In this document: positions 7,381-12,693 of the stretch, in pieces | Layout of the letters: each line of letters opens with the position of its first letter | Position numbering within the stretch: the first letter of the stretch is position 1 | Assembly (NCBI GenBank): GCA_007134215.1 | Contig: SLLG01000065.1 | Span: 1-42,371 of the forward strand | Source of the DNA: Opitutales bacterium | GTDB taxonomy: Bacteria; Verrucomicrobiota; Verrucomicrobiia; Opitutales; Oceanipulchritudinaceae | DNA length: 42,371 nucleotides | Direction of reading: 5' to 3' | Program-made: the position numbers and the translations under genes | Notes under the pieces: model-generated | What the model was told of the DNA's origin: nothing | The model's database searches: none | What the model saw: the letters and a program-made list of their open reading frames with translations, nothing else

Positions 7381-8658
7381 ATGGAATCCATTGCCGTCAT
7401 CGGAACCGGAATATCTGGAATGGCCGCCGCGCTGCGTTTGCACGAATCGGCACGCCTCACGCTATTTGAGCGAGAAACGTGGATTGGCGGGCACACGAAC
7501 ACGGTGACGGTGCGCGAAGGGACGGAAACGGTGCCGGTCGACACCGGATTCATGGTTTATAACGAAGTCACCTATCCGCGCCTCACCCGTCTCTTCGCAG
7601 AACTGAAGGTGCCCACGATGCCGACAGAGATGTCATTCGGCGTCTACCATGCGGGGGCGGGCCTGTCCTACTGCGGTTCATCGCTCAACCAAGTCTTCGG
7701 CGACCGCCGCAACCTCCTGCGTCCGCGCTTCTACGGCATGCTCCGCGAAATTCTCCGCTTCAACCGTGAAGCGCCCGCTCTTCTCGACTCCCCCGAGAGC
7801 GAGATGATGACCTTGGAGGCATTTCTCGCACGCGGACGCTACGGGCGCATGTTCCGCGACTATTACCTCATCCCAATGACGGGCGCGATCTGGTCGACGC
7901 CGCCCGACCGCATGCTCCGTTTCCCCGCGCGCACGCTCGTGCGCTTCCTGCACAACCACGGTCTCCTCGGAGTGAACACCCACATCCAATGGCGCACGGT
8001 GCGGGGCGGCAGCCGCGAATACCGCGAGCGGCTCATCGCCCCTTTCCGCGACCGCATCCGCACGGGATGCCCCGCCCGCTCCGTCCACGCCGCCCCCGAC
8101 CATGTCGAGGTGCGCGACACCACCGGACGCGCCCACCGTTTTGACCGGGTTGTGATTGCGACCCATGCGGACGAAGCCCTCGCCCTGCGTGCGAATCCAG
8201 CACCCGATGAACAGCGGCTCCTCGGGGTTTTCCGGTACACACAAAATCCCGTTAAACTCCACACCGACGCGTCGGTGATGCCGCCGCACCGGCGCACATG
8301 GGCCTCTTGGAACTACCGCATGGATCCCTCGCCGGACGGCGGACGGGCCTCCACACACTATTGGATGAACCGTCTGCAAAACGTCTCGGAACGCACAAAC
8401 TACTTTGTCTCCGTGGACGACCCCGGCCTCGTCGATCCCGCGAAAGTCCTCTGGGAGAAGGATTTCACCCACCCGACCTTCAATTGCGCGACGCGTGCCG
8501 CGCAGGAGGAGCTACCGCGGCTCAACCGGGGTGGGCGGGTGTATTACGCGGGAAGCTATTTCCGCTACGGCTTTCACGAGGACGGCCTCATGTCGGGGCT
8601 CGACGCCGCCGACGCCGTCCTGCAGGATGGAGGACAAAGTGAACTCGTCGCTGTATAG
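7381..8658 (+). CDS. FAD-dependent oxidoreductase, COG2907 family
   Basis: Flavoprotein of the amine-oxidase/protoporphyrinogen-oxidase-like superfamily, 425 aa. The dinucleotide-binding signature is at the extreme N-terminus (IAVIGTGISGMAAAL, residues 4-18), followed by the FERETWIGGHTNTV block and a C-terminal FAD motif around YYAGSYFRYGFHEDGLMSGLDAA. COG2907 members occur in a widespread gene set with DUF1365 and cyclopropane-fatty-acid-synthase-like methyltransferases, and have been linked to fatty-acid modification; their own reaction is not established. The next gene here is indeed a DUF1365 protein, overlapping by 20 bases, but no Cfa gene follows. The start ATG begins directly at the signature. 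GC content and codon use match the neighbours. Confidence 0.85.
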   Translation: MESIAVIGTGISGMAAALRLHESARLTLFERETWIGGHTNTVTVREGTETVPVDTGFMVYNEVTYPRLTRLFAELKVPTMPTEMSFGVYHAGAGLSYCGSSLNQVFGDRRNLLRPRFYGMLREILRFNREAPALLDSPESEMMTLEAFLARGRYGRMFRDYYLIPMTGAIWSTPPDRMLRFPARTLVRFLHNHGLLGVNTHIQWRTVRGGSREYRERLIAPFRDRIRTGCPARSVHAAPDHVEVRDTTGRAHRFDRVVIATHADEALALRANPAPDEQRLLGVFRYTQNPVKLHTDASVMPPHRRTWASWNYRMDPSPDGGRASTHYWMNRLQNVSERTNYFVSVDDPGLVDPAKVLWEKDFTHPTFNCATRAAQEELPRLNRGGRVYYAGSYFRYGFHEDGLMSGLDAADAVLQDGGQSELVAV

Positions 8659-9427
8659 CTGCACCGTCGCGCACACAAGGCTGCGCCCCGTCCGTCATTC
8701 CTTCTCCACGCGGACCTTTATGTTTTTTCTCGATCTCGACGAGATCGACTCCCTCTGCGCGCGGGTACCCCTCATCAGCCGCAACCGCTTCAACGCCTAC
8801 ACGTTTTCCGACGCGGACCACATCCACCGCGGCAGCTCCGACCTGCGGGCCAACGTGGAAGCTTTCCTCCGCGAGAACGGCGTCGACGAAGCGGTCGGGC
8901 GCATCCGCCTGCTCACCAACCTCCGGGTGTTCGGGTATGTCTTCAATCCGGTCAGTTTCTTTGTCTGCGACGATGCCGCCGGCGAGCCCCTCGCCATGCT
9001 TGTCGAAGTCCACAACACCTTCGGCGAGATGAAACCGTTTCTCCTCACGCGGGAGCATTTCGCCCGCAACCGCTACCGGGATATCCGCGACAAGCACTTC
9101 TACATCTCCCCCTTCAGCGAACTCGATCACCAGCTCGAACTCCGGCTTCCCCTTCCCGGCGAACGCCTCAACCTGCAAGTCATCAACCGCCGCCGGCACG
9201 AGGACACCCCGTTTCTCACCGCGTCGCTCACCGGACGGCGCGTGCCGCTGACAACCTCCCGGCTCGCCGCCTACAGCCTGCGCTTTCCCCTCATCACGAT
9301 GCGGATCATGGCGCAGATCCACTGGCACGCCCTCCGACTCTGGTGGAAAGGCGTGCCCGCCCGCGCCAAAGACGAGCACCCCGAACTCCAGCGCGGCATC
9401 GTCGCCAAAGCCGGCGCGGCGGACTGA
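8639..9427 (+). CDS. DUF1365 family protein
   Basis: DUF1365 protein (COG3496) of 262 aa, a typical length. The N-terminus (NSSLYSCTVAHTRLRPVRHSF) and FMFFLDLDEID are the family opening; NLRVFGYVFNPVSFFVC and EVHNTFGE are further conserved blocks. No enzymatic function is known for the family, which travels with COG2907 oxidoreductases and Cfa-like methyltransferases. I place the start at GTG 8639, 5 bases after GGAGG (8629-8633) and matching the family N-terminus; an ATG at 8627 in the same frame is less likely. The gene overlaps the end of the oxidoreductase gene, so the two are almost certainly one operon. It ends 23 bases from the convergent exbD stop. Confidence 0.85.
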   Translation: MNSSLYSCTVAHTRLRPVRHSFSTRTFMFFLDLDEIDSLCARVPLISRNRFNAYTFSDADHIHRGSSDLRANVEAFLRENGVDEAVGRIRLLTNLRVFGYVFNPVSFFVCDDAAGEPLAMLVEVHNTFGEMKPFLLTREHFARNRYRDIRDKHFYISPFSELDHQLELRLPLPGERLNLQVINRRRHEDTPFLTASLTGRRVPLTTSRLAAYSLRFPLITMRIMAQIHWHALRLWWKGVPARAKDEHPELQRGIVAKAGAAD

Positions 9428-10294: not shown

Positions 10295-11062
10295 ATGCCC
10301 GACAGTATCTACGAATCATCTCCGCTTCTCGCACAGTATTTGCTCTTTCATTACGGCCCGGAGAGCCTTGCGATGCCGTGGGCTTTCGGCCCGCGGGAGG
10401 CACTGGGGTTTCCCGTGCGGTGCGTGACGGAGTGCGTCGACGCGGCGTCGCTTCCGGCGGATGCGCGGGCGCTCGACGCGGGCTGCGCGGTGGGGCGCTC
10501 GACGCTGGAGTTGAGCCGTTTCTGCCGCGAGGCGGTCGGCTTTGACTACTCCCACACTTTCATCGTGGCGGCTTCGACGCTGTGCCGCGACGGCGAACTC
10601 CACTTCGAAGCGCCGGAGTACGGGATGATGACGACACCGGCGGTCGCGCGGTTGCCGGAAGGGATCGATCTTTCGCGTGTGCGGTTCCGCCGGGAGGACG
10701 CCGAACGGCTGCCGGAGGATCTCGGTGTGTTCGACGTCGTTCTGGCCGCGAATCTGCTCTGCCGACTGCCCCACCCCGACCGCTTTCTGGAGCGGCTGCC
10801 GTCGCTTTTGCGCCCGGGCGGGCAGCTCGTCATCACGACTCCGCACACGTGGTCGGAGGACTTCACGGCACCGGCATTCTGGATCGGAGGCACGCCGGAT
10901 TCGGGGGCACCGCTCGACGCCCTGAACCAACGCCTTCACCCGCACTTCGATCTCGCGGAAACGAAGGACCTGCCCTTCTGCATCCGCGAGCACGCGAGGA
11001 AATTCCAATGGTCGGTGGCGCAGACATCGGTCTGGCGCAGGCGCGACACACCCGCGGAATGA
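10295..11062 (+). CDS. stand-alone ovothiol-type (4-mercaptohistidine) N-methyltransferase
   Basis: Class I SAM-dependent methyltransferase, 255 aa, matching the family that forms the C-terminal domain of OvoA, which N-methylates 5-thiohistidine to give ovothiol. Landmarks are the opening YESSPLLAQYLLFHYG, MPWAFGP, SAM-binding motif I LDAGCAVGRS (60-69), FDVVLAANLLCRL and the closing IREHARKFQWSVAQ. These blocks are specific to this family rather than generic to methyltransferases. In OvoA the domain is fused behind a sulfoxide-synthase domain; here it is free, and no sulfoxide synthase gene is nearby. The ATG at 10295 begins right at the conserved N-terminus; the ribosome binding site is weak. 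The stop overlaps the start of the antiporter gene (ATGA). The family is well supported; substrate in this organism is inferred. Confidence 0.85.
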   Translation: MPDSIYESSPLLAQYLLFHYGPESLAMPWAFGPREALGFPVRCVTECVDAASLPADARALDAGCAVGRSTLELSRFCREAVGFDYSHTFIVAASTLCRDGELHFEAPEYGMMTTPAVARLPEGIDLSRVRFRREDAERLPEDLGVFDVVLAANLLCRLPHPDRFLERLPSLLRPGGQLVITTPHTWSEDFTAPAFWIGGTPDSGAPLDALNQRLHPHFDLAETKDLPFCIREHARKFQWSVAQTSVWRRRDTPAE

Positions 11063-12693
11063 CGAAAAAGGGCAAACCACGTTCGTATTCGCTGCGCCGC
11101 CCGCTCTCGTGGGCCGTCGGGCTCACGGCGCTGTGGGCGTTTTCGACGTGGATCGCGCTGGAGGGTTTCCGCATCGCCGCCCTGTGGCCGCCGGTCCTTG
11201 CCCTGCTCTGCATCGTGCTGACGCGGCGGGTGCTTGTGAGCCTCTTTCTCGGAGCGCTCGGCGGGGCGCTGATGATCGAGGAGGGGCGGCTGGGCGAAGC
11301 GCTCTGGTCACTGCCGTTCCGCTACCTGCTTCCCGCACTGGAAAGCCCGTGGAAATGGGGCGCGCTGCTCTTCACGCTTGCTCTCGGCGGGTTCGCCGCG
11401 CTGCTCGAGGCGGGCGGCGGTCTGCGGGGACTGTTCGAACGCTTCATGCAGGACCGGAAGGACGCCCGCAAGCGGCTGCAGTTCTCGGCCATGGGCCTCG
11501 GTCTCGTGTGCTTTTTCGACGGTTTGGCCAACAGCATCCTTGTCGGCCGCGTGAGCCGGAGCCTCGCCGACGCCTGCCGGGTTTCGCGGGCGAAGCTCGC
11601 CTACATCGTGGATTCGACGAGTTCGGCGGTGGCGTGTATCGCGTTTATCAGCACATGGATCGCGACACAGCTTTCGCTCATCGAGGAAGGGCTGCAAGCT
11701 GTCGGCGAGAGCGACCGCTTTCACCCCTACGCGGTATTCTTTGCGTCGATACCGCTGAATTTCTACGTGCTCTTCACCCTCCTGCTCCTCGGGCTGAGCG
11801 TGGCGATGGACTGGAATCCCGGACCGATGCGGCGTTTCGAGGAGCGCGCCCGCGCAGCGAAGACACCCCCGGACAACGGCAAACGGCTTCTCGACGCCTC
11901 CGCCGCACCGCTGCGGACGGCGCTCGTCCCGCTGGGCATCCTTGTCGGCGGAATCATGGTCCTCTTTTACCTGCGTGAAGCGCGCCCCCTCTGGCCGGTC
12001 ACCGTGGAGAAAGCCGCGCTCTCCTTCAGCAGCGCAGACGGCCCCTACATTCTTCTGGCGGGGAGCGCCGCCGCCATCGCCGCCGCCGTTGCACTGTACC
12101 CGCGCGGGCGCGGCACTCCGCCCGTCCTGCCCGCCTTCATCGGCGGCGTGCGCAGCCTTGTCCTGCCGCTCACCGTCCTTCTTTTCGCGTGGATGCTCGC
12201 CGGCGTCATCGCCGAGGCCGGCGCGGCGCAGGTGCTCGGCGACCTGCTGGGGGGCAATCTGTCGCCCGGCCTGCTGCCGCTTGCCGTGTTTCTACTCGGC
12301 GCTCTGGTCTCGTTCACGACCGGGACAAGCTGGGGCACAATGGGGCTCCTCATGCCGCTGGCCGTGCCGCTGGTCTTTCTGCTCGGAGAGCCGCCCGAGC
12401 AGGCATTTCTGCTCTCCGCCGTTGTCGCGGCGGTTTTCAGCGGGGCGGTCTTCGGGGACCATTGCAGCCCCTTCAGCGACACCACGCTGGTCGCCTCAGC
12501 GACATGCGGTCTGCGCCCGATCGACCATGTGCGCACGCAGTTGCCGTACGCACTCACGGCGGCGGCAGCGGCCGCGGTGTTCGGCTTCCTGCCCGCGGGG
12601 ACAGGTTTCCTTCCGGCCTACGGCGCTCTCTTGCTGGGCGGCGCGGCATTGGCGGCGCTCGTCACCCTCGCAACGATGGGCGCACGGCGTTGA
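11059..12693 (+). CDS. NhaC-family Na+/H+ antiporter-like transporter
   Basis: Polytopic inner-membrane protein of 544 aa with about 11-13 hydrophobic helices, belonging to the NhaC/ion-transporter superfamily. Diagnostic stretches are FFDGLANSILVGRVSRSL (about 152-169), the SFTTGTSWGTMGLLMP helix (418-433) and GDHCSPFSDTT (466-476), which contain residues typical of NhaC carriers. NhaC proteins exchange Na+ for H+, but close relatives move amino-acid-like or thiol substrates (for example malate/lactate or tyrosine), so the substrate is not certain. The start ATG overlaps the stop of the methyltransferase gene by four bases (ATGA), suggesting coupled translation. The gene ends 62 bases before the convergent capD-like gene. 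Confidence 0.85.
   Translation: MTKKGKPRSYSLRRPLSWAVGLTALWAFSTWIALEGFRIAALWPPVLALLCIVLTRRVLVSLFLGALGGALMIEEGRLGEALWSLPFRYLLPALESPWKWGALLFTLALGGFAALLEAGGGLRGLFERFMQDRKDARKRLQFSAMGLGLVCFFDGLANSILVGRVSRSLADACRVSRAKLAYIVDSTSSAVACIAFISTWIATQLSLIEEGLQAVGESDRFHPYAVFFASIPLNFYVLFTLLLLGLSVAMDWNPGPMRRFEERARAAKTPPDNGKRLLDASAAPLRTALVPLGILVGGIMVLFYLREARPLWPVTVEKAALSFSSADGPYILLAGSAAAIAAAVALYPRGRGTPPVLPAFIGGVRSLVLPLTVLLFAWMLAGVIAEAGAAQVLGDLLGGNLSPGLLPLAVFLLGALVSFTTGTSWGTMGLLMPLAVPLVFLLGEPPEQAFLLSAVVAAVFSGAVFGDHCSPFSDTTLVASATCGLRPIDHVRTQLPYALTAAAAAAVFGFLPAGTGFLPAYGALLLGGAALAALVTLATMGARR

Follow-up and report, generated by a model that had tools for sequence, protein, structure and literature searches.

A free-standing OvoA-type methyltransferase and an undescribed partner form a conserved verrucomicrobial gene pair that suggests an unrecognised pathway to an ovothiol-like compound

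The stand-alone methyltransferase

The C-terminal methyltransferase of OvoA finishes the antioxidant ovothiol. A relative of this enzyme is encoded by itself in the window analysed here, a stretch of 42,371 nucleotides that is an entire contig (C3) of a 4.44-Mb verrucomicrobial genome assembled in 374 contigs. The open frame is complete, running for 255 codons on the plus strand from the ATG at 10295 to the TGA at 11062, and its product was assigned as a free-standing OvoM-like SAM methyltransferase of 255 residues by profile, PDB matches and tree. It matched the NCBIfam profile TIGR04345 (ovoA_Cterm) at 188.8 bits (E 1.1e-55; curated cutoff 170 bits) over model positions 1–242 of 242, and its closest PDB matches were OvsM (9bxh; E 7e-51, 44% identity), OvoA (8khq) and OvoM (9bxl). 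A profile search of the genome found it to be the sole full member of the family.

A preliminary description of this DNA had placed the protein in the OvoA C-terminal methyltransferase family and called it encoded alone. Both points stand: the full-length, above-cutoff profile match puts it in TIGR04345 rather than in an unrelated SAM-methyltransferase family, and a sulfoxide-synthase domain is neither fused to it nor adjacent. The three sequence blocks on which that description drew are all present on the plus strand: YLLFHYG (residues 15–21; 10337..10357), with L16, as in OvsM, at the position of the Cys of fused OvoA domains; LDAGCAVGRS (residues 60–69; 10472..10501), which we take from general knowledge of class I methyltransferases to be the SAM-binding motif I region; and REHARKFQWSVAQ (residues 231–243; 10985..11023), with H233 and W239 where OvoA, OvoM and OvsM carry T and H. 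The protein also has the core conserved among OvoA, OvoM and OvsM, namely F89, A136, N153, R157, P183, T185, W186, W196, R231, E232, K236 and Q238. Membership of the family and the existence of free-standing relatives were already known: OvoM and OvsM, whose structures have been solved (a point that the preliminary description could not see), also stand alone, so that the lack of fusion is no novelty.

The preliminary description had allowed for a split pathway with the synthase elsewhere, to be sought as an OvoA- or EgtB-like protein without a methyltransferase domain. This genome, which is 97.2% complete, gave no match above cutoff to TIGR04344 (5-histidylcysteine sulfoxide synthase), the best score being 33.7 bits for an FGE protein; nor, then, is there an above-cutoff OvoA in the genome that would make the window copy a pseudoparalogue. 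There were eleven FGE-sulfatase matches, and the nine stretches examined further all lacked a DinB domain and fell below the OvoA, EgtB and SenA cutoffs. The best FGE protein (L007, 377 residues) was rejected as a synthase candidate, having no DinB domain and scoring far under every synthase cutoff.

An amine-oxidase-like flavoprotein gene and a DUF1365 gene lie side by side upstream of the methyltransferase (window 7381-9427). They were left aside because only one congener shares the pair, at the same place near the methyltransferase.

A conserved partner gene and its exchange with OvoA

Comparison of neighbourhoods in relatives from several families of the order showed an undescribed protein of about 386–388 residues, A1, encoded immediately upstream of the methyltransferase. 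The window's own genome has the two genes unlinked, with A1 on a different contig (G000:C101:7493-8650, minus strand). Of 55 relatives, 30 have a free methyltransferase, and A1 accompanies it in 27 of these; the three exceptions are G014, which is 84% complete, and G030 and G054, both of which have OvoA. The sample of 383 verrucomicrobial genomes, in which A1 was counted as present above 500 bits, contained 68 genomes with A1, and all 68 had a free-standing TIGR04345 methyltransferase. Six genomes gave weak A1-like matches only (~110 bits), one of them (G382) together with a partial methyltransferase match. Fisher p values for the co-occurrence, uncorrected for kinship, were 5e-66 by genome and 2e-35 by genus.

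Gene order agrees. At 44 loci, a few of them from genomes present twice, the methyltransferase follows A1 in the same orientation at a distance of no more than 0.5 kb, and 37 of the 44 are among the 80 named loci. The gaps run from −1 to 495 bp, four pairs overlapping by 1 bp; at one locus a longer overlap is due to start choice. Seven further loci have the methyltransferase downstream on the same strand at 1.7 to 6.4 kb. No third gene is widely common to these loci. A1 has at least 515 relatives in named genomes, and the best 80 are nearly all labelled Verrucomicrobiota; these named relatives point to a probable verrucomicrobial host of Opitutae type for the window. The link between A1 and the methyltransferase is strong. 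This conserved two-gene module with an undescribed partner, together with the exchange with OvoA described below, is what is new here, and lay beyond what the preliminary description, made from the window by itself, could see.

The wider samples also bear on where a synthase might be. OvoA was found neither in the window genome's two congeners nor in any of the 68 A1-carrying genomes, and no SenA scored above cutoff among the 383. Full-length SenA-like proteins below the cutoff occur in two of the 68 (L298 and L299, in G397 and G004), and similar sub-cutoff proteins occur in two genomes without A1. Selenophosphate synthetase (SelD) is absent from the window's own genome and from 53 of 55 relatives, being present in only two. 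With no OvoA, no above-cutoff SenA-type synthase and no SelD, the genome offers no support for a split OvoA pathway or for one based on selenium. A split ovothiol pathway, whose OvoA- or EgtB-like synthase sits elsewhere in the genome or was lost in assembly gaps, draws on the fragmentation of the assembly; given that no synthase reaches its cutoff here and that OvoA never accompanies A1 in the 383 genomes, we regard it as largely refuted and very improbable. The preliminary description had also raised a selenol substrate. OvsM is indeed the best PDB match, and the window protein has OvsM-like residues at L16, F146 and L171; an OvsM-like enzyme producing ovoselenol is nevertheless largely refuted because SelD is absent, and we hold it to be the least probable of the readings considered.

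OvoA itself, scored as TIGR04344 above cutoff, occurs in 23 of the 383 genomes, none of which has A1; taken alone this exclusion is weak (p 0.02). The free methyltransferases that occur without A1 are more informative. In the 383-genome sample there are nine full-length copies of this kind and all nine are in OvoA genomes of the window's order. G030, from the smaller sample of 55 and 82% complete, is a tenth OvoA genome with a free methyltransferase and no A1. In a tree of fused and free domains, the comparison that the preliminary description had called for, the window protein sits in a clade of free-standing verrucomicrobial copies that a branch with support 100/98 separates from OvoA, OvoM and OvsM, and OvoA and OvoM group together to the exclusion of OvsM (100/96), so that the window enzyme does not group with OvoM and OvoA. 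The free copies of OvoA genomes occupy three places among A1-linked copies (f14, f21 and G030); these are held apart by branches with good support, which require no fewer than three changes.

The fused domains of the order's OvoA proteins have themselves changed at residues that are otherwise invariant or nearly so: F89, A136, P183 and T185 in 11 of 11, E232 in 10 of 11, and K236 and Q238 in 9 of 11. Free copies keep nearly all of these residues, and the OvoA proteins of other families, whose genomes have no free copy, keep them. Since the fused domain is altered while the free copies keep the core, the free enzyme may do the methylation in those OvoA genomes. The plain reading of these sequences is that the free enzyme would serve the order's OvoA genomes as methyltransferase and that elsewhere A1 would stand in for OvoA. 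On the other hand, the altered fused domains agree with one another in a new consensus, so they may reflect a new specificity rather than loss.

In G036 (L016/L080) the OvoA frame is broken into open frames of 561 and 428 residues that overlap in the family match. It is the only OvoA genome of the order, in the samples searched, that lacks a free methyltransferase.

Fold of A1 and putative chemistry of the pair

A1 gave no Pfam or NCBIfam match at 1e-3, and a sequence search against PDB chains returned no useful match. The predicted model of the window genome's own copy (mean pLDDT 95.1) aligned best, by VIA-align, with NicX (7cn3, Z 26.1, rmsd 3.7 over 307 residues, 14% identity; 7cup, Z 25.4), followed by M29 aminopeptidases (Z about 18) and the crocagin proteins CgnE (13.1) and CgnB (11.5); Foldseek ranked M29 aminopeptidases first. 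Profile comparison with M29 (hhalign) gave probability 97.1 and E 6.5e-11 with the metal-ligand motifs aligned. A1 has these motifs as NLPxxE, GELG, GTxH and HxD, and E226, E288, H313, H339 and D341 are invariant in 46 sequences. Such an M29-type ligand set is known from dinuclear hydrolases. A1 is accordingly described, as far as its model goes, as a distant M29 homologue whose predicted fold is nearest NicX, NicX-like in shape and M29-like in ligand set; this candidate metalloenzyme may be either an iron/oxygen enzyme or a hydrolase.

Other verrucomicrobial genomes carry a further A1-like family (L266-L272) that is more distant. It scores ~127 bits to the A1 profile, gives weak PF02073 matches and has A1's ligand motifs.

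The methyltransferase side was examined through conserved residues. All 13 canonical fused domains and the three PDB proteins carry H at residue 239; not one of the 94 free copies does, the position being W (as in the window protein), Y, L, F or V. Residue 156 is D in 16 of 16 canonical rows and C in 77 of the 94 free copies, and the canonical T233 is H in most of them. Free copies keep F89, N153, R157, P183, W186, W196, R231, E232, R235, K236 and Q238 almost without exception. Conservation is our guide to which residues probably line the substrate pocket. Because every free copy lacks the canonical H239, the substrate may differ from that of OvoA, OvoM and OvsM: a 5-thiohistidine-like substrate is plausible, 5-thiohistidine itself is uncertain, and another histidine-thiol-like substrate, as the preliminary description had suggested, may serve instead.

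We propose, tentatively, an OvoA-independent two-enzyme route as the likeliest single reading, though one short of probable. The window gene and A1 would be the two halves of a conserved verrucomicrobial module, the window gene providing the methyltransferase. Computation shows that the two genes co-occur, that they stand side by side as if in an operon in other genomes, that OvoA is missing from every genome in which A1 was found, and that the methyltransferase forms a clade of its own. Beyond this, we infer that A1, metalloenzyme-like and with an M29/NicX fold, would supply a 5-thiohistidine-like substrate, as OvoA does in other genomes, and that the methyltransferase would then N-methylate the imidazole of this substrate with SAM, yielding ovothiol A or a close analogue. 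Supporting this possibility, NicX, to whose fold the A1 model comes nearest by VIA-align (ahead of M29 by Z), belongs to the mononuclear Fe(II) dioxygenases and cleaves a pyridine ring (PMC7910607), and so acts on an N-heteroaromatic ring. The changes at residue 239 and D156, the M29-type ligands of A1, the modest p value of the A1–OvoA exclusion and the incompleteness of G030, one of the three OvoA exchanges, all count against it.

The same substitutions feed a rather unlikely alternative, in which the pair acts on a non-thiohistidine imidazole or another small molecule and the resemblance to OvoM is only ancestral. This would suit both the well-supported split of the free clade from OvoA, OvoM and OvsM and the changes near the conserved core (D156 to C, T233 to H, H239 to W or Y). 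It sits less easily with the near-constant retention of core residues such as F89, N153, R157 and P183, and with the persistence of the free enzyme in OvoA genomes whose fused domain is altered.

Transporters and the M29 homology bear on a salvage reading, which we consider unlikely. Here A1, as an M29-like metallohydrolase, would release 5-thiohistidine or some other derivative of histidine from a conjugate or peptide that has been imported, and the methyltransferase would then methylate it; OvoA would be the de novo source and A1 the alternative source by salvage. The profile homology and the kept ligand motifs are consistent with this, as are the transporters that adjoin the methyltransferase in some lineages. 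In the window, a gene for an NhaC-type Na+/H+ antiporter-family transporter (11059..12693, plus strand; PF03553, E 6.1e-41) starts within the methyltransferase stop, the two sharing ATGA at 11059-11062, and within the window's family six loci have this type of gene beside the methyltransferase. Downstream of the free methyltransferase in those f14 genomes that have OvoA come genes for an apparent ABC transporter of amino-acid type, with periplasmic binding protein, permease and ATPase (L224, L226, L227 and L229, about 6–12 kb into each). No transporter, however, is common across the module, the predicted fold lies by VIA-align nearer NicX than the peptidases, and peptidase activity was not observed for CgnB and CgnE, relatives on the same fold (PMC10070186). 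On the two-enzyme route, the NhaC-type transporter would be coupled to the methyltransferase in the window's own family, as a possible carrier of substrate or product.

LemA-like and DUF2207-like genes adjoin the free methyltransferase in three genomes, with and without OvoA (L078:3060-6529, L225:5529-9265, L073:5361-8962); the names follow from sequence and from the description in PMC12631010 rather than from a profile search. For Proteiniphilum saccharofermentans, PMC12631010 reports LemA and DUF2207 genes beside OvoA and treats them as unrelated.

A more specific form of the two-enzyme route, and a distinctly doubtful one, would make A1 a second, unrelated 5-thiohistidine-forming enzyme, a metal-dependent protein of M29/NicX fold that adds sulfur to the ring of histidine with no sulfoxide synthase involved, after which the window enzyme methylates. 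If that were true, ovothiol-type thiols would have two evolutionary origins, and much of the Verrucomicrobiota would produce them. Genome searches for ovothiol makers rely on OvoA; if the product of this module is an ovothiol-type thiol, they overlook a large part of a phylum that is widespread in water and soil, and A1, a family without a Pfam entry, gains a role. Should the product differ, the pair would still mark an undescribed small-molecule pathway. The pairing is directly testable, with two genes, cultured hosts such as Haloferula rosea KCTC 22201 and Coraliomargarita sp. SDUM461004, and one predicted product class.

Comparison with known systems

Among characterised methyltransferases, OvoM (9bxl), a 5-thiohistidine N-methyltransferase, resembles the window protein in family, size, stand-alone form and conserved core; it differs in sequence (36% identity), in grouping with OvoA in the tree, and in having H239 and D156. 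OvsM (9bxh), a 5-selenohistidine N-methyltransferase, is the closest solved sequence (44%), likewise stands alone, and has L16, F146 and L171 in common with the window protein. It differs in belonging to a selenium pathway, SelD being absent from the window genome, and in having L at the position of W186 as well as H239. The C-terminal domain of OvoA (OvoC) belongs to TIGR04345 and has the same core residues, but is fused to the sulfoxide synthase that is absent from the window genome.

For A1, NicX (2,5-dihydroxypyridine 5,6-dioxygenase) is nearest in predicted fold. NicX holds one Fe(II) through H265, S302, H318 and D320 (PMC7910607), whereas A1 has M29-type ligand motifs, among them an HxD at 339–341. 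The M29 aminopeptidases (AmpT, AmpS and PepS) are homologous to A1 by profile, with aligning ligand motifs and the lower fold score given above; they differ in that a Pfam search with the window genome's own A1 copy yields nothing even at an E limit of 10, so that it does not reach the gathering cutoff of the peptidase M29 family (PF02073), which gives weak matches in 16 of 46 A1 members (best E 8.4e-5). Crocagin CgnE and CgnB are alike to A1 in predicted fold, more distantly than either.
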